Source of the DNA: Rhizoclosmatium globosum | Lineage: Eukaryota; Chytridiomycota; Chytridiomycetes; Chytridiales; Chytriomycetaceae | Direction of reading: 5' to 3' | DNA: 64,000 bases | Assembly (NCBI GenBank): GCA_002104985.1 | Contig: MCGO01000027.1 | Span: forward strand, 124,001-188,000 | Program-made: the position numbers and the translations under genes | Part shown: positions 23,871 to 64,000 of the stretch, piece by piece | Position numbering within the stretch: the stretch's first letter is position 1 | Layout of the letters: each line of letters begins with the position of its first letter | The notes under the pieces: model-generated | What the model saw: the letters and a program-made list of their open reading frames with translations, nothing else | Database searches by the model: none | Told to the model about the DNA's origin: nothing

Positions 23871-24915
23871 TCAATAGTGATCCGCAAGAATCTCCTCGGA
23901 GAACTGACTGAAAGTCTGTCCTTCTTGAGTCAGAACAAAGTCAACGTCTGGCTGAAGGAAGCACGCGAAAGTCGAACGTTCCACACCTCCAGCATCACTA
24001 CCCTTAACCAAGTGTGGAGTCGCTCTCAACACACCCTTGCTGAGGAGAGAAGCGGCCTGACCAACTTGGAACGCCATACAGTCCTCTGGAATCCCCACCT
24101 TTGTGAAAGACCCATCTGGAAGCTGGATATACAATCCAGATTGGTCGCCTTCTGGCAAAACAGCTGGATTCGTGATGGCACGTGTAAGCCCCGTCAAGAG
24201 AGAGTGATCAAGGTGCAAGCCGCACCAAGAATCCAAGCGCGACGAGTCTCTGGACACAGGAAAGTAATACAACAAACGACCCTTGTGGCAATTCAATGGC
24301 GACTTGAGTGCCTCCTGGAGCGACGACAAGTTTTCGTGTTTGGTAGCCAAGAACTGATCGAGTCGCTCAGCAAGCAACACACCGGTCTCAGTAATCGTCT
24401 TTCCGCATTCAACAAACGCTTGTTCCAGGGACTGGCCGTTGAGAATATCAGGAGATGGCCATACGTTCTTGAATCCGTAGGATGGGTTCTTTGCGGTGAA
24501 TTCTGGAGTCAAGTCTGGACGTTCGTAGACTTGGGCGTAGAAGGAGCCTTTGGCATCGTCTGGCACACCTTCCATCAGTTCCTTGCCGTGAGACCAGCCG
24601 AAGGAGTACTTCGAGGCAGGGTGTTCAAGGGCCTTCTTTTCGGCATCTGGGAGGGCAGCAAGGAGAGGGGCAAGGGAGAGGAGGTGCTTGCGTTGGGCGT
24701 GGTAAGGGTGGTCTGGCGGCATTCGAATGACTGGGTAAGTTGTTAAGTTTAGTTATAGGTGGTTCAGTATGAGAGCTTGTGTGTCACTGGCCAAAACAAT
24801 GGCACATACCAATGATTCCCAAGGAATCGGGGGTTCCGAATGCGGACTCAATGGCAGGGAAAAGCTCGTCTGGGTTGCCAGCGTGCAGTGATTCAAGAGT
24901 AAGGGTGGAGACCAT
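23871..24915 (-). CDS. 2-oxoglutarate/Fe(II) dioxygenase, isopenicillin N synthase-like
   Basis: Non-haem iron oxygenase of the IPNS/flavonol synthase superfamily; substrate unknown. Exon 1 (24810-24915) starts MVSTLTLESLHAG. Exon 2 (23871-24730) follows a 79-nt intron; the product has 321 residues, normal for the family. Visible motifs are the iron-binding pair in GLHLDHSLLTGL (His-x-Asp), a distal His in RATPHLVKG, and the Arg-x-Ser/Thr co-substrate site in VERSTFACF. The N-terminal part has the DIOX-type PASKYSFGWSHGKE. The Sen1-like helicase is divergent, with only 168 bases between the starts. Residues about 115-238 are present a second time at 63028-63395. Confidence 0.88.
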
Positions 24916-48410: not shown

Positions 48411-49060
48411 ATGTCACTTCACCAAGTCTCCACCAAAAACGCGCCAGCCGCTATCGGACCATACTCGCAAGGAATCGTCGCGAATGGACTCCTCTTCACT
48501 GCCGGTGAGAGTCATCGCCATGCAAACTCCATTTCCCCATACTGATTGATCCCTTTCCCAAAGGTCAAATCCCATTCGACCCAGTTACCATGGAAATCGT
48601 TGGAACTGAGATCCAAAGCCAGACTGCCCAGGCATTGAAGAACTTGAAAGCCGTTGTTGAGGCTAGTGGATCCTCCTTTGAGAAAGTGTGGGTTGTTGTT
48701 GTGCAACTAGTTCAATCATCAATGACGCCATCTTATCTTACTGTTATCTCTCCAGTGTCAAGACTACCGTTTTCTTGAAGGATATGAATGACTTCGTAAG
48801 CTCTCAATTTTAGAATTTGTGATTTGGTGAATGCGTATCATACTTGTGTATTGATTCTGGCTTCGTCTTTGACATTAGACTGGATAATCCACTAATTATA
48901 CATAAAAAATGTTCACAAAAAAAAGGCCAAGATGAACGAGATTTACGCTCAAGCTTTTGGATCCAACAAGTTCCCTCCAGCTCGTTCCGCTGTTGAAGTT
49001 GCTCGCCTCCCCCGTGACGTGTTGGTTGAAATCGAGTGTGTTGCCGTAGTTGACAAGTAA
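48411..49060 (+). CDS. RidA/YjgF (Mmf1/Hmf1) family protein, copy A
   Basis: Enamine/imine deaminase that removes reactive 2-aminoacrylate made by PLP enzymes. Exons 48411-48504, 48564-48687, 48756-48795 and 48926-49060 give 130 residues, the normal length. Family motifs: [64 protein letters not shown], and the substrate Arg in [21 protein letters not shown]. The second donor is read as GT|GTGGGT because that alone keeps frame and gives the expected VVKTT. No mitochondrial presequence is seen, so it is probably cytosolic. This copy is the left unit of a tandem duplication. Confidence 0.93.
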
Positions 49061-50032
49061 ATGCTACTTAAAAAAAATGAATAAAGTTTAAAACTTAAAT
49101 ATGAGAGAGAGGAATTCGGAGAAACCGGGACCAAAAACCCTTTCCGAAACTCGAATGTCTTTGCGCCAGATTGCGACCAAGTTTGCGCCAAAGGCGATCG
49201 GCCCATACAGTAACGGAGTTGTTGCGAATGGATTTGTTTACACTGCCGGTGAGGCTTACGCACGCGATCATCTGTCACTTCACCAAGTCTCCACCAAAAA
49301 CGCGCCAGCCGCTATCGGACCATACTCACAAGGAATCGTCGCGAATGGACTCCTCTTCACTGCCGGTGAGAGTCATCGCCATGCAAACTCCATTTCCCCA
49401 TACTGATTGATCCCTTTCCCAAAGGTCAAATCCCATTCGACCCAGTTACGATGGAAATCGTTGGAACTGAGATCCAAAGCCAGACTGCCCAGGCATTGAA
49501 GAACTTGAAAGCCGTTGTTGAGGCTAGTGGATCCTCCTTTGAGAAAGTGTGGGTTGTTGTTGTGCAACTAGTTCAATCATCAATGACGCCATCTTATCTT
49601 ACTGTTATCTCTCCAGTGTCAAGACTACCGTTTTCTTGAAGGATATGAATGATTTCGTAAGTTCTCAATTTTAGAATTTGTGATTTGGTGAATGCGTATC
49701 ATACTTGTGTATTGATTCTGGCTTCGTCTTTGACATTACACCGGATAATCCACTAATTATACATAAAATGTTCACAAAAAAAGGCCAAGATGAACGAGAT
49801 TTACGCTCAAGCTTTTGGATCCAACAAGTTCCCTCCAGCTCGTTCCGCTGTTGAAGTTGCTCGCCTCCCCCGTGACGTGTTGGTTGAAATCGAGTGTGTT
49901 GCCGTCGTTGTAAAAAAATGAATAAAGTTTAAAACTTAAATATGAGAGAGAGGAATTCGGAGAAACCGGGACCAAAACCCTTTTCCGAAACTCGAATGTC
50001 TTTGCGCCAGATTGTGACCAAGTTTGCGCCAA
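48412..50032 (+). repeat. Tandem duplication of an 861-bp RidA unit
   Basis: Positions 48412-49272 and 49273-50032 are the same sequence, offset 861 bases, with a few substitutions and small deletions. One is the loss of about 17 bases around the stop codon of copy A; another shortens the A-run before exon 4. The unit runs from the second base of copy A's start codon through exon 1 of a second RidA paralogue. The near-identity of introns as well as exons means the event is recent. The second unit stops abruptly at about 50032. Confidence 0.93.
49155..49921 (+). CDS. RidA/YjgF family protein, chimeric copy B
   Basis: Exon 1 (49155-49248) encodes a paralogous RidA start [20 protein letters not shown]. 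Its donor (GCCG|gtgagg) is in the same phase as copy A. It can splice to duplicated copy-A exons 49425-49548, 49617-49656 and 49784-49921 to give 131 residues, ending VAVVVKK at TGA. So the duplication has built a gene with a B-type start and an A-type body. The duplicated A exon 1 (49273-49365) lies inside its first intron; its ATG has become CTG, so it cannot start translation by itself. Whether this transcript is made is not known; the reading frame is intact. Confidence 0.7.
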
Positions 50033-50064
50033 GGTTTTCAGGACAATGCCCTTTCGACGCCGTG
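49996..50064 (+). pseudogene. Truncated RidA copy at the edge of the giant gene
   Basis: The second duplication unit carries B-type exon 1 again (MSLRQIVTKFAPR) but diverges at about 50032. The following bases ttttcag|GACAATGCCCTTTCGACGCCGTGACT look like the 3' splice site and first codons of a RidA exon 2 (GQxPFDxVT). Thus the rest of exon 1 and the intron are deleted. RidA similarity then ends at about 50060, where unrelated sequence with an in-frame TAG begins. No further RidA exon is found to the right in this window. Confidence 0.75.
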
Positions 50065-50118
50065 ACTTAGTTATAGAACGACACGATGGGGCATAAATGT
50101 TTCAAAAACTTACATCAG

Positions 50119-53100
50119 CTATACGTCACTAACGTGTCCAGCAGCTCCAAGGGAGGCCAAGTGCAAGATAGGAAAGTGTGTAGATTTGTTGTCCACTCGC
50201 TGAGATACTGGATAGTCATCCTCAGTCTGCCTCGAAGTGGGATCAATCCCACCTTCGTCCAATCTCCCTTCCACCTCCTCCACCACAACATACTCTAAAC
50301 GACCTTTAACAATACGCTGTTTCTTTGCCGGAGGAGGTTTGTTGTTGTTGTCACCACTTCGTCCTCCGCCTTCCCGTCTGTCTCTACCACTCCCTCCTCC
50401 TCTCCTTCCTCCATTCCCTCCACCGCTACCTCCACCCGGCCCTCCACCTCCTGGATCACCGTTGCCATCATTGTTTTCCGCACCTCCCGTCCCACCACCT
50501 CGAATGTGGTGATGGACCCGCATCAATGCAATCGCCCACGTTAGATTCTCAATGAACAGGCCACTCTTGATATCACGTGGGAGTCGGAAAGTGAGACTAT
50601 CACTTGAACATAATTCACGGCCACTGCAGCGTGGATTTGAACATTTGAATGTCTTGGCCTTCCCAATACGCGAGATGCGGCCGCAGAAGCACATGATTGT
50701 CGATCCAATCTATTTCAAAAATAACAGTGTACAAGTTAAATAAAGTAACATATAGAAGAGTGTTTACCTCAGTTACAATTACCACAGCCTTGATCCTCCC
50801 AATTCTACCACTGAGTGGAAACTTTGAATCAAAGCCTTCACCCATAATAGACTTGATGTTTGCTGCAGTTGGTAGAGGACTGCCAGTAGTAAAGAATGCG
50901 CCACCATTCTGCGACTTTTTGAAGGCCATGACCGTGGTCTGTTTCCTAATGGAGGCATGGGCCGCATATGAAAGGACAGTCTTGACCCATTCTAAATTAA
51001 AAAGGAAAATAGTTATTTAGAAACAAGAAACAAGACAAATCAATAAACTTACTTGGAATCCCATCTTTTCCAGAAGTGGATTTCTTGTTGGTGGTTTTTG
51101 AGTTGAAGTCGGATGTGGCATAAGAATCAGCACTTGAATTCCATTCTGCAGCAGATCGACGAACTCGTTGAGCATACTTGTTCAGTTTATCTTGTGCATT
51201 CTTGAGCAGCCGTGAGAACATGTTGGGGTCATCTCCATCACCATTTCCATCAAGAACAACCTCAAACTTACAGCACATCTTTTTCAACTCCTTGTCAACT
51301 CTCCCTACTTCATCCACCAGATCCTCGTCATCTACAAGCACATCCATATCTTGCACATTGGGTGTTGGCTTTGGAACCATTCTCGCTGATGCACGCAGAT
51401 CCTTCAACCTGAACTCCAGCGCCTGTTCCGCTTCAAGCACAAGTTTTTCCAGACGCAAAGTTTCCACCAATACAGCTCCATCACCCGCAGCGTATTCAAC
51501 AAGATCCAATTCAGCAGCAGCAACAAGACTCCGTAACTCCACCACTGACTCCAGTTGATCAATGGCTCTGTCTCGAAACGATTGAAGAGTGCTGATGCGT
51601 TTCTGAAGACGACAAATCACTGCTTCAAAGCCTACTCCAATCTGAACAACATGGCCTGTACTTGCCATCTGAGTTTCCACTGTCCTTCCACCTGGATCAC
51701 TGCTCAACAATAAACGAGTTGTTCCAAACACTTTTCGAAAGGCAGACTGAACAGCTTCTGAAGGATTTGTGATCCAAACATCAGGACTTTGAAAAGAACC
51801 CATATGAGATTCGAATAAAGCAGTATCTTCAGCATGAACTCCACCCAATTTGTTAGAGTCATATCGAAATGATCCAAAGTTGTGTTGACGAGCATAAACA
51901 GTCATGACATCTTCCAGTTTGCGTCGGTGCTTGGCAGAACACTCATTTTGAATTCGATGTCGAAGATATTGAACCAAATGCGATGCATGTCGATACTCTT
52001 CTCTGGCTTCAGGGTTGCCAGGATTTGAAGCATATAACTTTCGAGTGTCAGCCATAGCTTTGAAGGAATCAGACAGTAACTCTTGGACTGCATTGAAGTT
52101 GACATCAGAAGGATGGCGATTAACTCCAGGAGTTGTTGTTGTTGGATAGCGTCGAGGAGAACCACCATGAGAGAAGTTTGCTGTTATTTGTTTCAAGTCA
52201 GCTTCGGTCATGTGGTGACTTCGCAGAGGGAGCATTGTTTTGAAGACACCAGTTTCTCTGTCATATGTAATACTGATGGCACCGGGACGGTAGGTCAGAA
52301 ATCTATTCTTGGAAGTTGGGAAGTTGATGGTTGAGTTCTGTATCAACTGCAGCTCAATAATATTCTTGACACTAGCTTTGATTTTGTAACCAAGTGGATG
52401 GACAACAAGCCTTTTGTTTTTGTCAGAGCCCTTTTCTAACGCCATACGCATCAAGTTCAAGTGACACAAATTGATGGACGGGAACACAGGTGGCCATGGA
52501 ATGTCTGCACTGGGGGCATCACAGGAATCAAGAAAGTAAGCCTCAATTTTTCGTGATGACAACTTCTCATTTTGCTGATCAAAGATAGCAGATTGCAACC
52601 CCCGCACTTCAGAACCAGAGAGCTTTGGGAAAATAGTGTGGCCATCAACAGAGAGATAACGACGATTTGAATGACTGAACTGCTGATGGAATGGTTTTCC
52701 TGGTTGTTTGTATTGAATTTAGAGAAAAGTTGTTGAGAAGAAAACTAAAGAAGCTTACTCAATTTCAGGCCAACTTTGGTCCAAGTCTTGTATCGAGCAA
52801 TAGAACTTTGGACTGCTTGCTGCACAACACCATTGTTATTGAGCTGTTGACCAATTTCATTTTCCAAATAGCCATCCCTCCCAAACAACAGGTATTCATT
52901 GTTACTCAACTTGATAACATCCTCAAACAAATTTTTGAGATCATCACGGCAAATGAGATTGATGTTGATGTAGGGAGTTGAGGGCACCAGCCGCATTTCT
53001 TTCTTTATCGACAAGCCCCACTGCACTGGCTGGATATATTGAAGAATCAAAGTCTTAAAGGAGGTGCGCAGTTGAGCAAGAGTGAGCTGGGAAGTATCCT

Positions 53101-56100
53101 CTGGGACTTCATCGTCTTCCTCCACTCCCTCCACAGTTTGGTTTTGAACACCTTGAGCACCTTGAGCACCTTGAGCACCTTGAACACCTTGAGCACCTTG
53201 AGCACCTTGAGCACCTTGAGCACCTTGAGCACCTTGAGCACGACCAACACCTCTGACTTGAACATCTTCATCTACTTCCTTGACCGGATTGATAACAAAA
53301 GACACAACAAGTGCATCCAAAAACTGCAAAAGGGCTTTGGCATAAAAGTCACCACCAACAACAGGTTTGACTCCAGTGATGATGGCTGAATGCAAATAAG
53401 GCCGATACGTATTCTGTGACTGTTTCTCACGCTCATTCCGCAATACTCTCTTGTTTTCGTCCTCAAGTGTCCACACATGTCCAGGCAAATGCATCATATA
53501 CTCGTAGATGGAGCGCTCGTGCAGGCTCAGAGAATTCAAAGTTACTTGATGGTCTGTTCCGACCAGAAATCCATTCACCATGTTGAAAGGACCCGTCTCT
53601 ATAATAACATTCATGGCGTCTGTGGTGGTACTTTCGACAGCAGATAACAGAACACTGGAATCATAGAACCGAGGAAACAAGTTTTGTGAAAGCCTTTGGG
53701 CAGCATCATCAAGAGTGACATCATTTTGAACAGGTCGGACCCGATAGACAACCTCCCCAACCAATTTCTTCTTTTCATCTGATTTGAAAGGAACATAATC
53801 CTCCTTGTCACTTCCTTGATTGCTGTTGTCATCATCATCGCCGTCTGCATCCTCCTTTTCCTGACTCAAGTCATGTTCCAGTTGGTTGTACAGACTCACT
53901 TTCAGCGCTGATAAATCCTTATTCAAGAATGTATCCAGATAATGTTCCCTATAAGGGATATTGAAGCCAGATTTGGGATCCAATAGTAGAGTAATGATGC
54001 TGAAACGTAACAGAGCAAGCTGGTCCTTGGAATGCTCGGTGGGATAATACCAGAACTCTCCATCTTCTGTAATAAATCCAACAGCACCATCACTCATGGC
54101 TGCAGTCCAGACTTCATGTGAATCGTTCTTATTGACAGCTCCAAGCAATATGGCCAAAACAATCATACGATCCCAGCAACTAGATTTGGACACTTTCAGA
54201 CCATCAAGCTCCTTTACAATATCAAACAGTATTCTCAATGGATTTGAATTTGAAGCTGCAAAGAGATCACGAATAATGGCAAGTAGTTGGCCAGGTTGTT
54301 GGTTGGTACTTAGACGATTGTACTCAATCTCAGGGCTCTGATTTCGTTTGAAAGAGGGAGAATCCAGAAACGCCAAGATCCTCCAGTGGACTGGTTGCTG
54401 ATTCAGTTCATTGGGAGGTAGATCCTCAAGTTGGATGTTCAATGCGGCAGCATGCAACTTGTTGAAGAGATTGATGGTGCCAGGAACAAGAACCCGAACA
54501 GTATCAAACGCCAAAGTAGCAAGATCTACGTAGGCTTTGAGCAATATTCTTTCTTGTTCATCCTGGACAGTTCCTGCACACAGTTTTTAACATCAAAAGT
54601 TGAATCAAAACAGAAGGAGTCAAACACACATACCATGGGCAACATATGTGTTCAAGAAGTATTGTTGGTGGTCTTTTCCGTTTAACGTCATCATCTTGCG
54701 CTCAAGAATCATATCAGCTTGAGCCGCAGTCATATCCCTAAAAGTTACTCAGTGTTAGCTGACAGTCAAGTGAAGCCAAAGGAAAACACATACGCAATAT
54801 CAATCTGTTCTTTTGGTGCGTCATCAGCAAGGGTGCGGCGATTCTCAAACGCCTGTTTCAGCAACACTTCTTGTTCTTCCTTGATCCTCTTGGAAGGCAT
54901 CCTGCTCAATCTGTCCTTTGTCAGTTGAAACGTTGCAGTCTTTATCACGCGTCGGGGTTGTTTCTAAGAAATTGAATTTGAGTAAACAAACACCTTTGAA
55001 TCATCTCACCTCAACTTTGGCTCTGTCACTATTCATGCCTCCATTTTCACTTTCAGCCTCACTACTCCTTGTCTCAACACTTTCATCCTTTCCATCATCA
55101 CTCTGAGTCTCAACACTCCCAGCAACATCATGTTTGAACAGAGGCAGAAACAAAGCCTCATATTGATTGTTGTTGGACCATTTGGAAGGAATGGCATCAA
55201 GTTGAGGAACTCGTTGAGACGGCATAACCCCAGACATGTGGGCCCCCTTGTATCCATGAGTGTGTTTGAAATTGAAGCTGGTCCCATCCAAGGCAACTAC
55301 AAGTGGACGAACATTCAGGACTTTTGAATTCAATGGCTGCTCGTTGGTTTGAAGAGTGAGATTTTGAAAGGTGTGCTGTGGAAATACAAAGTCCCACGCG
55401 TCATCAGCAGAACGTTCCTGAAATCTTTGACTCAGTTGAAAGTCGAGAGTTAATGTTGCACCAATATCAACTTTTTGTTTGATATTTGGAACAGATTCTT
55501 TTAGTTGCAACCATTGTTGAACAGCTGCTCTCATGTAGATATATCCCAGTTTTGACATTGACTGAGGAGACGTCATTGGTTGAACAACACGACCATGACC
55601 AAAATGGGTTGAAATGGCAGCATTCAAGACAACATCATCAGAATCCTTCAACTTTGGGTGGCACAACAACAGTTTCTTTACGGTGGAGTTGAAATTGTTG
55701 CGGTAGATTGCGGCTTTGCTTCCAGTTACTGACACAGATACAAGAGATTCAGGCGCCTCAAGAATTGCACCAGAAACAAAGTCTTGAATCCCCATAGCAA
55801 GAGAGTAGCCCCAAACACGTCTCCGAGTATCATTCCAAGCTGGAGAAATCAGTTCGTTCCAAAGCACAGGATCATGGTCACCACCACCTGGTCTTATGAA
55901 TGAACGAGAAATAAATTGAAGTTTCTGATGAGAATGTTTGCCAACTGGGAGAAGATGAGTTGTCTGGTTTCGGAAATCCCGAAGAACCACCTTGTCTCCA
56001 AACAGAATAGAATGGAGGCCCAACACTTTGACCTTGGCTGTCACAGGTTGGTTCCTGGTAGGGTTGAATGTGGTAGTTGCCAACACTTGGAACAGTGGTA

Positions 56101-59100
56101 GAATCTATGTGTTGAATTACTATTAGTATCTATATAACTGAGGGGATAAAGCTCACATAAGATATCTTGGAATCACTATTCTTGAAAAACACCACTCCAA
56201 GCTCCGTTGCTCCAGAGAAGCTCATGGGTTCCTTGCCAAAATCCGGTGCTTTTGAGTACGACTTGAATAAGATTGACCCTGAACACCATTCCCCACCAGT
56301 AAAGGTGGGCAAAGTCTGAACAAATTCATTCAACGTAGTCAATGCTGACTGAAACACATGGTGCATCCCATTCTTCTGGATCTTGAAGCTCCTACCAATG
56401 ACTTTCTTGTTCACCATGGACAGGCCAATCAACAATATTTTGCTCAAGTCCATCAACTCTGTATAGAGTTCTGAGGAGAGTCGAAAAGAGGCAGGACTGA
56501 TTGGAGCTTTATCAAAGAACAGCTGACAGGGTACAGGATGTCCTAGTTGAAACATTGAGTCTTGATTCTTACTCAAGAAATCAAACAACTCACCAAACAT
56601 ATCTTTCATCTCAACATCTTCATTTTGGTCCAAAACATCCACATCTCCAACATCAACATTTCCAACATCATCGACTTGAACATTGAGTCGGTGTTGGTTG
56701 TCCTGCGCGACTTGAACTCGGTGTTGATGTATTGGTGTGTTCAACAACCTTGCACTATTTGTCCAGTGGAATGTTTGGACAATAACACCAGTCACATTCT
56801 TGATGCCGCCCTTCTTGTTGTACTGTTGAATGGTACCAAACAACTCCATAGCTTCACTGTCACTCAATTTGGACCTAGTGGCTGCAGCAAAATCACTTCG
56901 GTGAGCCAAGTACGGACCATAACTTTGAGTACTGTCTTGAGTCTTCAATGTACGATAAACTCGAGTCATGTCCGTGTCGCTTGGGTCTCCATTCGTGAAT
57001 GCCTGCCAAGTAGCCAGTAGTTGGCGAAGAACAATAAAGTCATGTAGTTTGAGTTCCCGATCAGTCATGGCTGTTCTTGGAGGCTTCAAAGTTTTCCCAT
57101 CAGGACCTTGGATCCAAATCGGATAACTTCCCGGACGCATGGAGCGAGCAGCAGTGGCAGGGTGATTCATGGAATACACGTAACTTGATCCCATTTCAAA
57201 AGCCTGGTTGACAAGAAGAGGGTCCATAATCCCAAGCGACGTGACACAGCGAGAAGCATCAGATCCAGCAACCAGCTGTCGGTTCACAACAGTGATAGTA
57301 CTTGTATCTGTAACTGGAACATCAGCATCTGCAAGATTGGGAGCAAGAGTGGCAGGAGCGGCTGGAGCAACTGGAGTGACAGGGATGACTGGAAAAGTCT
57401 GAACAGCGGGAGGAGTTGGGACAGTTGGAACTCCAGTGGCAACAGGAGGAACAAAGGTTGAGTGCGCATCAATCATATGTCGAAGCAAGTCTTGTGGGTG
57501 TCCTTGGAGTTGACAGATGGGACACGGTTCCTTTTATATGGATTAGTATAAAAATGACTTTCACGAGATTCAAGACATACCAATGATCCAGGTCCTGGTG
57601 AATCTGGGATGAGCACAGCCAGATTTTTGTTAAAGAGATTTATATCCGAATAAGAACCTCGAGATGGAAAGTGAGGTCGAGATGAATCAGGTCGATGGAA
57701 ATGACGAGTAATGATATGTTGTTCAAAGGCTAACAACGTTGCAGCGTCACTTGACCCTTTGTGTTCTGTAAAACAAAGTGGACAGAATCCGTTCTGATTG
57801 ACCTCGTTAGAAAAGACAAAGAAGTAATAATATACATACCAAAAAGTTTTGATCAGTAAACACCTCAGCAAGTCGATTATCCAAATTTTGTATTTTGTCC
57901 AGCAGAACGTAATGCTCCTTCTTCCAGAGTCCTAACTGAGGTCGTTCAGACCATTTTTCAATGTTAGAGTCAGCTGACTCATCACGACTGCTGCCACCAA
58001 GTACAGAGTATTTTTTGGGAACAGGCTTAACTCCACCTTGGACTGGACCTCGGACTGGACCTCGGACTGGACTACCTTGGACTGGAACCTGGACTGGACC
58101 TTGGACTGGACCTCGGACTGGACTACCTTGGACTGGAACCTGGACTGGACTACCTTGGACTGGAACCTGGACTGGACTTCCAACTAAACCTCCATCACCA
58201 TCACCATCACCATCACCATCTCCTTCTTCTTCGACAGAAGAAGGTGTACCCGCTTTGACTAAAAGCGCCAATGAGATTTTGTACATGGCTTCATGGATAG
58301 CATCAACGTTGACAATCTTGATTCCAAAAACAGGTTCGGCACAAACACCAAGATCAAAAAGTAGCTTTGGACAAAATAGGTATCTATACACCAAAACAAA
58401 GTCAAAACACCAAGAGTTCAAAACAACAACAGGCTTACCTATTCAGTGACAAAACAAACACAACACTTGGAACAATAGTACGTCCGCGCAACACCAACTC
58501 TTGCCTCAACTGATTCAAGTCAGCTCCGAGAGAGAAAACAGAGGCGCCATGTCTTTCTTGTAGCACATCAAACGTCGCTTGATTCACACTATAACTCCAA
58601 TCTCCAGTAAAACAGCTGCAGTGATCCAGTCCATCAACCATACCCTGAGGACACTTGTACAACTGAGGGACAATACTAAACACTGTTTCGCCTTCCATAT
58701 TATTGTCGGCATTATGTTTGGACACAGACTTGACACGTTCCTGAATAGCAATCATGGCGGCACCAGCAGGATGAATAAACCCAAATTGAGTTTCAAAGGC
58801 AACAAGAGCTTGACGGAGAGGCATTGCAGTCATGGTATTCAGAAACCTTTCACACTCAAGAATCGACTGCGACGTACTCAAGAACTTGTCGTAAATTCGA
58901 GCAAAGGACCGGTAACGGGGTTTTAACTCATGAGGAATCAATGATGTAGTGGCATTGATAAAGATTGACCCTTGAGGAACCTTGACACGGGGAAGTGGTG
59001 TTGGCGTCTATTACAAAACAGTGCGTTGGAATCTAATTTGAGCACAAGAGTAGAAACTCACTCCTGGTACTGGATCAGAAGGAGGCCCTTTGTCAATCTC

Positions 59101-62100
59101 GTCTGGTACATCATCTTCCTCGTCCTCCTCAATCAGTCGCTTTCCCTTTCCTTTCCTTGGTTTGGCTGCTTTTGCCTTGATAGGTTTTGTGGCTGGTTTC
59201 GACTGTTTTGCTTTCTTTGCTCCTTTTGCCTTCCCCGCGGCAGATATGAATGGAGCAGTGCCATACCCGAGATCCAGATCCGCCAGACTTTGTTCCAGTT
59301 CAAACAGATCGACTGCATCAAAGCTGTCCAGATTCAAACTTGAGGTTCCATTCAATAAATCTTCCAGTCCACCAACAGAGTCCAGGTCCGAAGCCGAATC
59401 CAGGTCCGAAGCCGAGTCATCGAAACCAAGACCTTGAAACTGATTGAGTAGTTCATAATCGATATCACCATCCTTTTTGTTGACAATTAAAACGAACCTT
59501 TGAACACCCAAGAATATTACCTCTCCGTCAGCCACAGAATCAAAGTCAGACTGAACAGACTGTGAAGACACACTATCAGCCTCAGAGTCAGACACTGTGT
59601 GCGGATCAAACAAAGATGGTTCCGGTGCAGTCAAAGCATCAAACAAATTTGAATCAGATCTGACAAAAGAAAGAGTGGGAGATACAGCAGAGGAGGCAGT
59701 GAGAGCGGCAGAGGAGGCAGCAACGACAGGAGTCTTGGGTTCCAAGAAAGGAGAGAACGTGAATCCTCTTGTTTCTGATATCGGATCTTGCTCTTGTACT
59801 TCGAGATTTGTTGGTGTAGATCCAGTGGACTCTTCGATATTTGAAGTCGTCACGGAAGTATCGTCAACACCAAGGTCGGAAACCTAAAGTAAAACGTTTA
59901 GAATATAACATAGTAATTTTGAACAAGGAACATACACTTGTAGATGATTCGCGAGAGTAACGGAATAGACGGCGGCTTTGGTGAGAATACGGGCTGACAC
60001 CAGGGTTGGACGAACCATCTACAGAAGAACCACCCAAGGATGGAGTTTCATGGGATTCATCACGAAGCGGAATTGGAGGTGGTGGATCTGATTGAGCACT
60101 ACGAGTTGATTGTTCGACAGATGAAGTAGTGTACAGTGTTGATGGTTCGACAGTTGAAGTAGTGGACAATGAACTTGGCTCGGTTGTTGGCTTCGCATTA
60201 TTTTGGGATGGCGGACTGGACCCCGAGCTAGTCAAAAATTCCTTCGTATCACTGCGTTGAGTTCGAGAGGCACGATCTGCTCCTCCACGTACTTGAACCA
60301 CAAACTTGAGAGTTGAGTCGGTTGGAATGTTGTACGCTGTTTTTGAAGGTTAGAATGAAATACATTTTCAAATTTAATACTTACAAGACAAAAGGCTCGA
60401 GTCTTCCAACTTGACCATTCCAAACACAAGAGTACAAGACAGAGCATAGATCACGTTCCGTTCTTGGTATAGAAACTCTCGAAGGTCACGAATAGTCAAC
60501 ATAGAAGGCATTTCGACAAACAGATGGTGGCCATCCACCAGTTCGACAAAGAAGCGTGAGAGCAAAGCCTGTTCAGGTCCAACAGTAGTTGTAGACAGAT
60601 CCAACGATTCAATTTGAGCAATAGATGGTGGACACTTGTCAAGCTGTGACCATGACTTGAATAAAGCAGACATAATGGCCCTTTTCTGAGAAACACAGCT
60701 GACGCTGTCCAAGAAACCAAATACGGCCAATGCGAGCTCGGGAGACGGAATCCAATCTTGATACGACATGGAATCCAGTGAATAACCGGCCACTTGAGTG
60801 TTCAATACAGTCACTGGTTCAAGAAGCGGTGGTGGTTCTGGCAGTGGACTGTCTCCTTGAGGGACAGTAATCACTTGAGTCAAAGTGGGGTCAATAAGCT
60901 CAGCCACTTTTGATAAACCTGTTAAATAAGATATAGGTTAGGGAAAATGTTAAGGGATTGAGTCAAAGTACTTACCAAGCTGAGTGATTACATGAGGTGG
61001 AATGAAGTCAAGCAGAGTAATTGGGGGGAATGGTGGATGGCGTATAGTTGGTTTGGGGGATTTTGATAGAGTGGGTAAACTGGGTTGATACTTGAGATTG
61101 AGATGTGAATGGGTGTGCTTTCCACCCAGAAGAGAATCACTTGACAACACAACACCACCAGTGTGAGTAGTGGCAACAGGGATAGACCAAGATGGAGAAA
61201 CTTGAGGATTTATATCCGCGAACCAAATCCCAGTGTGGTGGCAAACAACATTCTTGGCTGTCGCCTTGGTGGGGTCAGACTTGGTCCGCGTCTGTGACAG
61301 ACGAAGAATTGGAGACACAGTATTTTGGTCAATAACTGGATTGGTCAAGACGGGATCAAGTTGGCTGAAAGTAGTTGGTAGAACGGATGACTTGGTATTC
61401 CTTGATTGACTCCATGATTGACTCTGTGGACGAGGTCCAAGCTGCACAAGAGTACTGGGATTCAGACCAAGATCTATGAGCTTGATTAAGCAACAACGAA
61501 TACCAATGAACGCAATAAAAAATTACCATGGAGTAATCCAGTTGAGGGCAATCGCTTCCAACACCGGCCAGGTCGATAGAGCTGGAGACCCACAACAGAG
61601 AGACCAACAGCCAAAGTTGCAGCCTGCTTTGCTTCCAGCACAGTAGAATCATTGGAGACAAGAACAATAATGATTGATCCATTTGGCACGATCACAGAGA
61701 GATGGAACTTGTGATTGACAGACAGCGATGTAGACGGCACTAGCAACCAAGAGCAGTAGGCATACTTGACGAGGTCCAACAGCCCGCCAATCATAAAGCA
61801 ACAGAAGACCAGTAGTGAGTAGAGCGGGGTAACAAGGTTCTCATAACGAGCAAGTAGCTCGGCAACCTTGATCTCGTGGACAAGTCGTTCGTAACCAGAG
61901 AGCAGCTCCACCAGTTGAGCGAGCTTCAGTTCCTTCTCCACAGACTTGAGAGACTTCTTGGCATACGACTTGTGTCGGCGATGTTCTTTCCTTGTCTGTT
62001 CGTACTCGGCAGACCCAAAGAGAGAATGATTTCTCAGCCATTTTGAGTGGAACTTGAACTGGCGACGCAAAGAACGTTGATGTTGAGCTTTCTCCCAAAC

Positions 62101-62509
62101 GAGTAGAAAGAAGGGAAGAGGGCAGGAGATGTTCAAGGTAACCAGATTCCAGATTGACAGTGTCAGGGTAACCTATTGTGGTGGAAGGGACAAATGTTAG
62201 AATGAACAAGTTGCCAATGGATGCATTGAATACATACCTGAGTGTCAACAATGGGAAGGCAGTGTGCAAGAAGAAAGCCTCCGACGGTAGTGGGAGACCA
62301 GTGGTGAGAATTCGTGATTACGTCGACTTGAACCACAGTCATCAAGCAGTGGCAAATAAAGCCGGAAATATCGTGTAAAACATGGGATGCTTTGTGAATA
62401 GTATTGTCAGTGGTTGCGTGTTGCAGAAAGGGAACATACCTCCGACGACGACAACGTTGAATAGGAAGGAAAGAGCTGCGATGGCAGAGAAAGTGGACAC
62501 GTTGAACAT
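50119..62509 (-). CDS. Giant multidomain protein with Fanzor/TnpB-like RuvC C terminus
   Basis: Exons (high to low): 62509-62440, 62389-62238, 62172-61527, 61473-60976, 60918-60385, 60336-59936, 59883-59062 (minus a 48-nt in-frame intron 59520-59473), 59007-58439, 58383-57840, 57802-57581, 57530-56157, 56104-55010, 54963-54794, 54737-54634, 54573-52759, 52699-51053, 50991-50768, 50709-50119. All phases agree: 3,809 residues. In order: hydrophobic N terminus (about 1-240), Pro/Ser linker, ubiquitin-like domain (578-652), acidic and Lys-rich low-complexity region (KAAKPRKGKGKR), unknown globular parts, two C2H2 fingers (1403-1493), more unknown domains, GAQ repeats, then RuvC-I SSDPGGRT (Asp3324), RuvC-II VIVTE (Glu3613), a zinc ribbon and PRDIKSG (Asp3659), and a Gly-rich tail. 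Fanzors are RNA-guided eukaryotic TnpB relatives, usually 400-1,000 residues. An upstream ATG (62600) with a small intron would add six residues. Fusion of neighbouring genes cannot be excluded without RNA data. Confidence 0.7.
50480..51710 (-). other. RuvC-like nuclease core and zinc ribbon of the giant protein
   Basis: The DPGGRT segment (51698-51684) is followed by a beta-strand GHVVQIGVGFEA and a helix CRLQKRISTLQS. This is the order seen after the first RuvC motif of Fanzor1 and TnpB. After a long helical insertion, exon 18 reads KWVKTVLSYAAHASIRKQTT and then IKAVVIVTE. Exon 19 gives MCFCGRISRIGKAKTFKCSN, PRCSG and LPRDIKSGLFIENLTWAI. The four cysteines (3620, 3622, 3636, 3641) form a ribbon with CxC in place of the usual CxxC. 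The final Asp stands in an R-D context like the RDxNxAxNI motif. Match to the family is by motif order and spacing only. Confidence 0.65.
53146..53242. repeat. 9-bp tandem repeat coding Gly-Ala-Gln
   Basis: About ten copies of the unit caccttgag (plus strand) with a few single-base variants. On the coding minus strand they read GAQ/GVQ repeats within exon 16 of the giant protein. The unit is a multiple of three, so length changes keep the frame. Confidence 0.95.
57460..57785 (-). other. Two C2H2-type zinc fingers in the giant protein
   Basis: First finger: FCPLC ... EQHIITRH, with Cys1403, Cys1406, His1425 and His1430. Second finger: EPCPICQLQGHPQDLLRHMI, with Cys1473, Cys1476, His1488 and His1493. 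They lie on either side of a 48-nt intron. Such fingers bind DNA or protein; a DNA-binding role would suit a transposon-related nuclease. Confidence 0.7.
58030..58222. repeat. Pro-Val-Gln coding repeats and (CCATCA)n tract
   Basis: 58030-58170 holds nested repeats of ggactggacct and ccttggactggaacct. They read PVQVPVQGSPVRGP on the coding minus strand. 58191-58222 is (catcac)n, read as Gly-Asp repeats. All lie in one exon of the giant protein and keep the frame. Confidence 0.9.
60281..60553 (-). other. Ubiquitin-like domain ending in Arg-Gly-Gly
   Basis: Residues 578-652 of the giant protein, split by the intron at 60384-60337. It aligns with ubiquitin over its whole length with a single one-residue insertion. 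Beginning FFVELVDGHHLFVEMPSMLT matches the first two strands. FGMVKLEDSSLLSSYNI corresponds to FAGKQLEDGRTLSDYNI. STLKFVVQVRGG corresponds to STLHLVLRLRGG. The chain continues after the RGG (ADRASR), so a deubiquitinase could cut there. The lysine pattern of ubiquitin is largely not kept. Confidence 0.8.
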
Positions 62510-62600
62510 CTATTTAACATGATTAGCGTCAATGATATCATGATGATGAAGGAATAGGAGAGGAGAGCAAGGATTAGGTAACCTCTGTGGAGATTTCCAT

Positions 62601-63027
62601 CCTCCTTTCACAGACAATCAAACACGAGAGTCATAGAGACATCCACGAGAAGAAGCAATAGTGTAGTTGATGGTATGGAAAATGAAATAAAAGGAAGCGG
62701 GGAAGGAGGAAAGGTTATCGGGTTGTTGAGTGGGGTAAGTGGTCTGGGCCCTTGAAGGACCAGATCATCAAGGAAGTGTCTGCGGAATGATCGCAGATAG
62801 TACAAAGCTTATAGAGCACTCATAATGAAAGTGGACCACTATACACACCTCACAGATTGGGAAGGAAGGGATGAAGGGGATAAGGGATCAACTCACTTGC
62901 TTCAGAAATTTTGAGGGTTTATTGAAAAATATTATATAATTGGGCGACGTTCTTTGGAAACATGTATCCTATCCCCGCTTTTTCAAAAACGCCCTTTCTC
63001 ATTATATTACTCTAGACTATTGGGGTA
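62601..63027. promoter_or_regulatory. 5' flank of the giant gene
   Basis: About 430 bases with no supported gene. AT-rich near 62905-62945 (attgaaaaatattatataattg), which could serve as a promoter for the minus-strand gene. I compared this end with the other end (about 50065) and found no convincing terminal inverted repeat or target-site duplication by eye. Confidence 0.4.
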
Positions 63028-63395
63028 GGATATACAATCCAGATTGGTCGCCTTCTGGCAAAACAGCTGGATTCGTGATGGCACGTGTAAGCCCCGTCAA
63101 GAGAGAGTGATCAAGGTGCAAGCCGCACCAAGAATCCAAGCGCGACGACTCTCTGGACACAGGAAAGTAATACAACAAACGCCCCTTGTGGCAATTCAAT
63201 GGCGACTTGAGTGCCTCCTGGAGCGACGACAGGTTTTCGTGTTTGGTAGCCAAGAACTGATCGAGTCGCTCAGCAAGCAACACACCGGTCTCAGTAATCG
63301 TCTTTCCGCATTCAACAAACGCTTGTTCCAGGGACTGGCCGTTGAGAATATCAGGAGATGGCCATACGTTCTTGAATCCGTAGGATGGGTTCTTT
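63028..63395 (-). pseudogene. Duplicated internal fragment of the 2OG dioxygenase gene
   Basis: 368 bases almost identical to 24125-24492, with three substitutions noticed (about 99% identity) and the same orientation. It corresponds to residues about 115-238 of the dioxygenase, including the iron-binding His-x-Asp, but has neither start nor end of the gene. The edges are sharp on both sides. As the source stretch contains no intron, it cannot be told whether it came through DNA or RNA. It lies 60 bases beyond the malate synthase stop and next to the giant gene's 5' flank. Confidence 0.93.
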
Positions 63396-63455
63396 ACGAT
63401 ATTTCATCTTTGATTGCGAAAATAGAACGAAATAATAGTTGAAAATTAAATCAAA

Positions 63456-64000
63456 TCAGAGCTTGGCTCCTGGTGCCTTCAGAGTAAGAATGGAATCGTA
63501 GCAAAGAGTCTATGAACAGAACGTTAGAATTCATTAAGAACTCGTTATTAGGAAACTTACGGTCAAGAAGTCTGAGTAGTCTCCACCCTTGATGGTGCTG
63601 GCCAAGAACTTTTTGGCCAATGGGTACTTGGTCTCAGCAAAGCCCTTCTCACCCAAACGGGCTTGAATGGCAGCAACTTCGCCGTCCAACAACTGGTCAA
63701 TATATTCAGGGGTGATGACCTTTCCACTGGTAGTTGTGGCACGGTGACGAACCCATTGCCAGAGTTGAGAACGGGAAATCTCAGCGGTGGCAGCATCTTC
63801 CATCAAGTTGTGGATTGGAACACATCCGAGACCACGGAGCCAGGATTCCATATAGACCAAGGCAATTTCAATGTTGGTCTTGATTCCCTGCTCAGAAATC
63901 TTGACAACCATTCCCTTCAAGCTCAAGAGGTCAGCACCAGTAACGTGAACGTCTTCGCGGCGGACAAAGAGCTGGTTTGGCTGTGGCATGTGTTGGTTGA
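63456..64000 (-). CDS. Malate synthase, C-terminal part, peroxisomal
   Basis: Glyoxylate-cycle enzyme joining glyoxylate and acetyl-CoA to malate. The gene continues beyond the right edge. The exon to 63561 has the family blocks [34 protein letters not shown], and [18 protein letters not shown]. The latter contains the Asp that acts as catalytic base in this family. The last exon (63456-63508 approx.) reads [16 protein letters not shown]. The final Ala-Lys-Leu is a type 1 peroxisomal targeting signal, so the enzyme should be peroxisomal or glyoxysomal. The final intron is short with a GTAAGT donor. Confidence 0.95.

Follow-up and report, generated by a model that had tools for sequence, protein, structure and literature searches.

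The stretch of DNA analysed here, referred to as the window, comprises 64,000 nucleotides (nt) from the genome of the chytrid Rhizoclosmatium globosum (contig C190:124001-188000 of a 56.9-Mb assembly in 420 contigs). It contains one member of a dispersed family of mobile elements with a constant 3' end and one conserved gene of ~19 exons, and the protein predicted from this gene carries a ubiquitin domain with a Gly-Gly end and, at its C terminus, a module bearing the Fanzor catalytic signature. The evidence for the element and its giant gene is strong, and that for processing at the ubiquitin domain and for a guide RNA overlapping the end of the gene is suggestive. The copy in the window has the following extent:

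50098..63027, minus strand: mobile element of ~12.9 kb, with its 5' end at ~63027 and its 3' end at ~50104, followed by a short T-rich tail

A first-pass annotation, made from the letters of the window alone, had asked for a copy count and had left open whether the gene belongs to a transposon, encodes a polyprotein or is a host gene that has taken up a Fanzor. We searched the genome using one exon as the query and found 28 places, of which 20 are near full length; the 8 short matches were left out of the 20. These fall into two subfamilies, A (n = 7, 94-100% identity) and B (n = 13, 75-77%), and the exon match is free of internal stops in 15 of them. Alignments of the window copy with the six remaining A copies extend over as much as 12.9 kb at 92-99% identity and stop at nearly the same 5' point; two of the six have no 3' end. 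The constant 3' end (...AGCTGATGTAAG) is reached in 17 of the 20 loci and is followed by short tails that differ between the A and B subfamilies. The 5' ends vary, with leaders of up to roughly 150 nt, and that of the window copy is ~23 nt shorter than in two sister copies. Flanking sequences are mostly dissimilar; part of one flank is common to three pairs among nine copies, and some B copies have right flanks in common. The presence of ~20 dispersed copies with conserved ends and mostly unlike flanks identifies a ~12.9-kb mobile element, not a host gene, and the captured-Fanzor alternative was rejected on copy number and flanks. Several copies on smaller contigs (among C13, C21, C38 and C253) share their right flank with C13 copies, which would fit these contigs representing the second haplotype of C13.

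The gene was modelled on the window copy with a conservation-guided gene finder, and 5 of its 22 introns were judged false and removed by hand because the sequence they occupy is repetitive or poorly conserved and remains open. The resulting chain runs from the ATG at 62509 to the TAG at 50121-50119 and comprises 18 exons separated by GT-AG introns 46-65 nt long, encoding 3,822 residues with a single terminal stop, thus reproducing the 18 minus-strand exons in one frame that had been annotated initially. Comparison of the copies adds one more intron (59520-59473, 48 nt) inside the former exon 7, which had been overlooked because its length keeps the frame in the window; this segment is 1 base shorter in the C334 and C179 copies, which would contain in-frame stops unless it is spliced out. 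A predicted protein of 3,806 amino acids (aa) from 19 exons is the better model, and its parts are as follows:

62440..62509, minus strand: exon 1 with the start codon; the three compared B copies have a stop here, and the true start may differ
62238..62389, minus strand: exon 2
61527..62172, minus strand: exon 3, hydrophobic segments
60976..61473, minus strand: exon 4
60385..60918, minus strand: exon 5, ubiquitin domain begins at ~60556
59936..60336, minus strand: exon 6, ubiquitin domain ends, Gly-Gly at ~60281 (residue 652)
59521..59883, minus strand: exon 7
59473..59520, minus strand: intron of 48 nt, additional to the 18-exon model
59062..59472, minus strand: exon 8
58439..59007, minus strand: exon 9
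57840..58383, minus strand: exon 10, low-complexity linker with GSPVQVPVQ repeats
57581..57793, minus strand: exon 11, CPLC zinc-finger-like motif (residue 1400)
56157..57530, minus strand: exon 12, C2H2-like finger (residue 1470)
55010..56104, minus strand: exon 13
54794..54963, minus strand: exon 14
54634..54737, minus strand: exon 15
52759..54573, minus strand: exon 16, QGAQ repeat linker (residues ~2828-2855) within one open frame that connects the preceding part with the Fanzor-like module
51053..52699, minus strand: exon 17, RuvC-I DPG motif, Asp3321 at 51698-51696
50768..50991, minus strand: exon 18, its last codon being the alternative RuvC-II Glu3610
50119..50709, minus strand: exon 19, zinc ribbon (Cys3617/3619/3633/3638), Arg-Asp3656, glycine-rich tail, basic KKQR and stop codon

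An exon-by-exon comparison of ten copies (seven A and three B) revealed no in-frame stop, frame-changing indel or loss of GT/AG at the aligned position in exons 2-9, 13 and 17 in any of the ten. All 19 exons are open in three of the seven A copies, the window copy included, and the other four A copies and all three B copies depart somewhere from the open frame. The longest non-coding gap between exons is no more than 65 nt. Exon 16 forms one open frame across the QGAQ linker in nine of the ten copies, where indels are multiples of three, so that no splicing is needed to join the C-terminal module to at least the ~450 residues ahead of it. Evolution is fast over residues 1-900, where the codon-position signal between the subfamilies is weak; a non-coding N terminus, considered because of this weak signal over codons 1-800, was rejected since exons 2-9 keep their frame in all ten copies. 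The predicted gene frame is not due to chance. One B copy, c413_129 (L010 region), is much closer to A than are the two c13 copies over the equivalent of ~62.1-60.4 kb, a sign of recombination or gene conversion between the subfamilies.

The C-terminal module was compared with published definitions of Fanzor proteins. Fanzors have been defined by a DPG in RuvC-I together with a glutamate six residues ahead of the zinc finger, with a strict spacing of ExxxxxxCxxCx(12,18)CxxCx(4,8)D (Yoon et al., PMC10711439), and Fanzor/TnpB proteins by D-X(125,275)-[TS]-[TS]-X-X-C4 finger-X(5,50)-RD (Bao and Jurka, 2013, PMC3627910). In the 19-exon model, D3321, E3610, six intervening residues, C3617, C3619, C3633, C3638 and D3656 follow in this order, which bears out the three RuvC acidic motifs and the cysteine ribbon recognized in the first-pass annotation. 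The DPG is present in all 20 loci, and the core E-x6-C-x-C-x13-C-x4-C...RD, with its glutamate six residues before the first zinc cysteine as in the Fanzor definition, in 18, the remaining two lacking the C terminus. When the C-terminal 820 residues were shuffled 20,000 times, the signature pattern never matched; this pattern is post hoc, having been loosened from the published ones after this sequence was seen.

At codons 3601-3700 (18-exon numbering), codon position 3 takes 71-72% of the changes between A and B, 83% of those within A and 90% of those within B. No amino-acid change occurs in two 20-codon windows, from 3624 and from 3664, whose four-fold sites differ at 33-60%; the window between them has 15-20% amino-acid change. 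The predicted C-terminal module is thus shown to be under strong purifying selection. The E, the cysteines and the RD are also present in a Podochytrium protein with 42-45% identity across the aligned portion, and a third relative, from the genome of the window (L059, C334:104240-105540; 28% identical), has a DPG at the expected place, immediately outside the matched stretch. Protein searches with the full-length query gave no relative among the 1,858 candidates scored; two shorter queries, with 8,000 candidates each, together gave nine proteins, all from Rhizoclosmatium or Podochytrium. In the proteins P0008 and P0009 the DPG that was scored lies in glycine-rich tails rather than in RuvC-I. 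P0008, an annotated protein of Rhizoclosmatium hyalinum, has the C terminus of the element fused to a glycosidase domain (PF00150), reflecting either an insertion beside a host gene or an annotation error.

Several observations weigh against a Fanzor. The zinc knuckles are CxC and Cx4C, not CxxC, with x13 between them; 17 residues separate the last zinc cysteine from the Asp, outside the strict published spacing of zinc ribbon and RuvC-III; and 291 residues lie between the D and the [TS][TS], compared with a published maximum of 275, the other parts of the pattern being in order. The profile comparison proposed initially gave little: neither Pfam, PF07282 included, nor the sequences of the PDB returned a Fanzor, TnpB or RuvC match, a result whose meaning is limited by searching exon by exon and by the remoteness of the similarity. 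Full-length hhalign comparison with six TnpBs was misregistered and not significant, and the C-terminal segment aligned in the expected register with a score equalled or exceeded in 59 of 200 column shuffles. The AlphaFold model, with a predicted local distance difference test (pLDDT) of 35.4, was too poor for a comparison of folds. In addition, Pfam found no transposase in the element. The Fanzor/TnpB assignment of the first-pass annotation is thus largely borne out by the residues that define the family, but no profile, PDB sequence or structure confirmed it. As the similarity methods were all negative or inconclusive, the term Fanzor-like rests on residues, order, spacing and selection, which provide good residue-level evidence for a putative Fanzor-type nuclease.

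The remainder of the protein has a hydrophobic N terminus, as annotated initially, with five Kyte-Doolittle peaks within residues 4-250. Of the C2H2 fingers that had been proposed, there is one C2H2-like finger (residue 1470) together with a second CPLC (residue 1400); PF05605 matches at 7e-4, below the cut-off. The ubiquitin-like domain, likewise predicted before, spans spliced residues ~577-652 and matches PF00240 at 9e-5 in the window copy, below the family cut-off, and at 2.8e-9 in one B copy, above it. Ubiquitins in the PDB align as far as the terminal Arg-Gly-Gly. The predicted domain is real. Despite strong divergence of the domain itself between the two c13 copies and the rest, Gly-Gly-Ala-Asp is kept in all ten copies compared. 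A Gly-Gly end of a ubiquitin domain is what a deubiquitinase needs, and the conserved terminal Gly-Gly suggests a polyprotein cut by host deubiquitinases, giving the initial polyprotein proposal support in which the cleavage itself is predicted.

The last part of the gene appears to carry a further signal:

50105..50298, minus strand: 3' terminal stretch, nucleotide-conserved on both sides of the stop codon; candidate scaffold of a guide RNA (omega/reRNA) or cis-acting end

Over the last 60 codons, four-fold differences between the subfamilies number 1/21, 1/24 and 0/12 in three comparisons, compared with 461/920, 469/909 and 462/905 from codon 901 onward (Fisher p = 1.8e-5, 1.0e-6 and 2e-4), and residues differ at 9/60, 7/59 and 9/37 positions. 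In some B copies (L008, L016) the reading frame is a different one over the last ~20-25 residues, yet the nucleotides stay alike. The last ~180 coding nucleotides thus look constrained as nucleic acid. In an alignment of 14 distinct sequences from the 20 loci (four had no match to both search patterns and two were duplicates), the sense strand gives a better fold than its column-shuffled controls (z = -2.2), unlike the antisense strand (+1.5). OmegaRNAs are reported to overlap the end of the gene in some Fanzors (Saito et al., 2023, PMC10432273). Speaking against a functional RNA, covariation is almost nil, a double change being seen in only one of the 60 predicted pairs; when A copies are compared with each other, the 3' end gives no significant result (0/27, p = 0.16-0.26), and 60-codon windows from about 121-361 and 861-881 are also low in four-fold differences, so that gene conversion between subfamilies could explain the low divergence. 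Rfam matched nothing in 49000-64000. A predicted guide-RNA scaffold is the leading reading of the constraint, with gene conversion as the alternative.

How the element moves was approached through its ends. In seven copies no inverted repeat joins both ends; the best matches did not pair the two termini in any copy and were equalled in 10-134 of 300 shuffles. Direct repeats of 18 bp and 42 bp, without a pattern, flank two of the seven, the 42-bp repeat sitting 1.4 kb upstream of the 5' end of its copy, and no regular target-site duplication was found among them. Genome searches for an empty site matched only the query itself with 63400-64000, and only itself and its own tandem repeat with 49180-50096. 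The variable 5' ends and T-rich tails led us to consider 5'-truncated retroposition, which was rejected because the copies retain introns and Pfam detects no reverse transcriptase. Searches of viral and plasmid collections gave no relative of the element.

Taken together, we favour, with some reservation, a chytrid DNA element whose only gene encodes a ~3,800-residue polyprotein with a Fanzor1-type RNA-guided nuclease at its C terminus. Host deubiquitinases would cut after the Gly-Gly and free the remaining protein, and the C-terminal ~800 residues, following the repeat linker and ending in a basic tail resembling a nuclear localization signal, would act as the nuclease. The guide-RNA scaffold may be transcribed from the last ~190 nt of the gene and the guide itself from the adjoining host DNA, and cutting of sister or empty target sites would allow the element to be kept or copied by repair. 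Integration may be the task of the intervening ~2,200 residues or of a factor acting in trans. We offer more tentatively the full picture of a giant self-contained element, in which a deubiquitinase splits the membrane-seeking head from a single precursor at the internal ubiquitin, the terminal part is an RNA-guided nuclease and the end of the gene serves as its own guide scaffold. Such a ubiquitin-processed Fanzor polyprotein possibly includes an undescribed mode of transposition.

Three other explanations were weighed. The module may be a RuvC-like nuclease that has the TnpB/Fanzor fold but has lost its RNA guidance and serves as the element's own transposase or end-cutting enzyme, the conserved 3' end being the DNA site it recognizes. 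Such an enzyme would suit an element with no other transposase candidate by Pfam, a constant 3' but variable 5' end, zinc knuckles and spacing unlike Fanzor and almost no RNA covariation; we nevertheless regard it as unlikely, because the rearranged glutamate and the DPG typical of guided Fanzors are strictly kept and the sense strand folds above its column-shuffled controls (z = -2.2, antisense +1.5).

It is still harder to maintain, and in our view quite unlikely, that the gene model merged two adjacent genes or alternative starts, i.e., an upstream host-like or accessory protein and an ordinary Fanzor gene of ~800 aa. The database annotation of R. globosum does have short models for copies (549 and 536 aa), and low-complexity linkers separate the parts; however, coding exons are never more than 65 nt apart, splice sites are mostly kept, and exon 16 stays open across its linker in 9/10 copies, with indels there in multiples of three. 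That the motifs are coincidental, in an unrelated chytrid element protein with a zinc ribbon, would explain the absence of profile and structural support but is very unlikely given that the catalytic and cysteine positions are ordered (0/20,000 shuffles with the post hoc pattern), that the motifs are fixed in 18/20 copies and that the 28%-identical relative has its DPG at the expected place.

Among known systems, Fanzor1 of the chytrid Spizellomyces punctatus (SpuFz1) is likewise element-encoded and multicopy in a chytrid host and has in common the DPG, the Glu six residues before the zinc ribbon, the C4 and the RD; in contrast, it has 638 aa in a single open reading frame within a ~2.1-kb element with inverted repeats (PMC3627910, PMC10432273), compared with ~3,806 aa, 19 exons, 12.9 kb, no terminal inverted repeat and a ubiquitin domain here. 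The MCi-2 elements of Mucor circinelloides also combine a 3'-side Fanzor and a constant 3' region with fuzzy, different 5' ends and no inverted repeats, whereas their complete copies show 11-12 bp duplications of a fixed pattern (PMC3627910) and the direct repeats here, at 2/7 copies, are patternless. PpFz1, with a RuvC insertion of ~100 aa (PMC11423790), shares the presence of extra sequence within the RuvC region, which here amounts to 291 residues between the RuvC-I Asp and the zinc-ribbon motif, for which a low-confidence model predicts helices. Fanzor1 proteins are mostly 600-700 residues long, with some reaching ~800 (PMC10711439, PMC11423790), and the open-access literature, covered as titles and the starts of abstracts with subscription papers and supplements outside, revealed no Fanzor of several thousand residues or fused to ubiquitin. 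The ubiquitin-eS31 and -eL40 precursors, found as PDB matches, also have a ubiquitin fold ending in Gly-Gly and followed by another polypeptide, whereas here the ubiquitin is internal, behind ~575 residues with hydrophobic segments.

The surroundings of the insertion include one further feature:

63028..63398, minus strand: flank outside the element, 371-bp internal fragment of an oxygenase-like gene with an intact paralogue at 23874-24752

We take this fragment to be oxygenase-like by eye, from a motif, and Pfam gave no match for it. Another copy adjoins a truncated CCCH-type gene, also named by eye, with an intact paralogue elsewhere; the remainder of the truncated gene was not seen directly beyond the element. 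A 780-bp tandem duplication (48412-49191 and 49273-50032, 96% identical) adjoins the 3' end of the window copy, near the start of a plus-strand RidA/YjgF-type gene (PF01042), and a genome search found no other place for it.

What is new here is a ubiquitin domain ending in Gly-Gly in the predicted protein of a Fanzor-like element. If the proposed reading is true, an intron-rich, ubiquitin-fused Fanzor-like protein, larger by ~five-fold, would widen the known architecture of eukaryotic RNA-guided nucleases, and a host-processed polyprotein strategy would be added to the Fanzor class. The family would also provide a testable system for the spread of Fanzor elements without a recognisable transposase.

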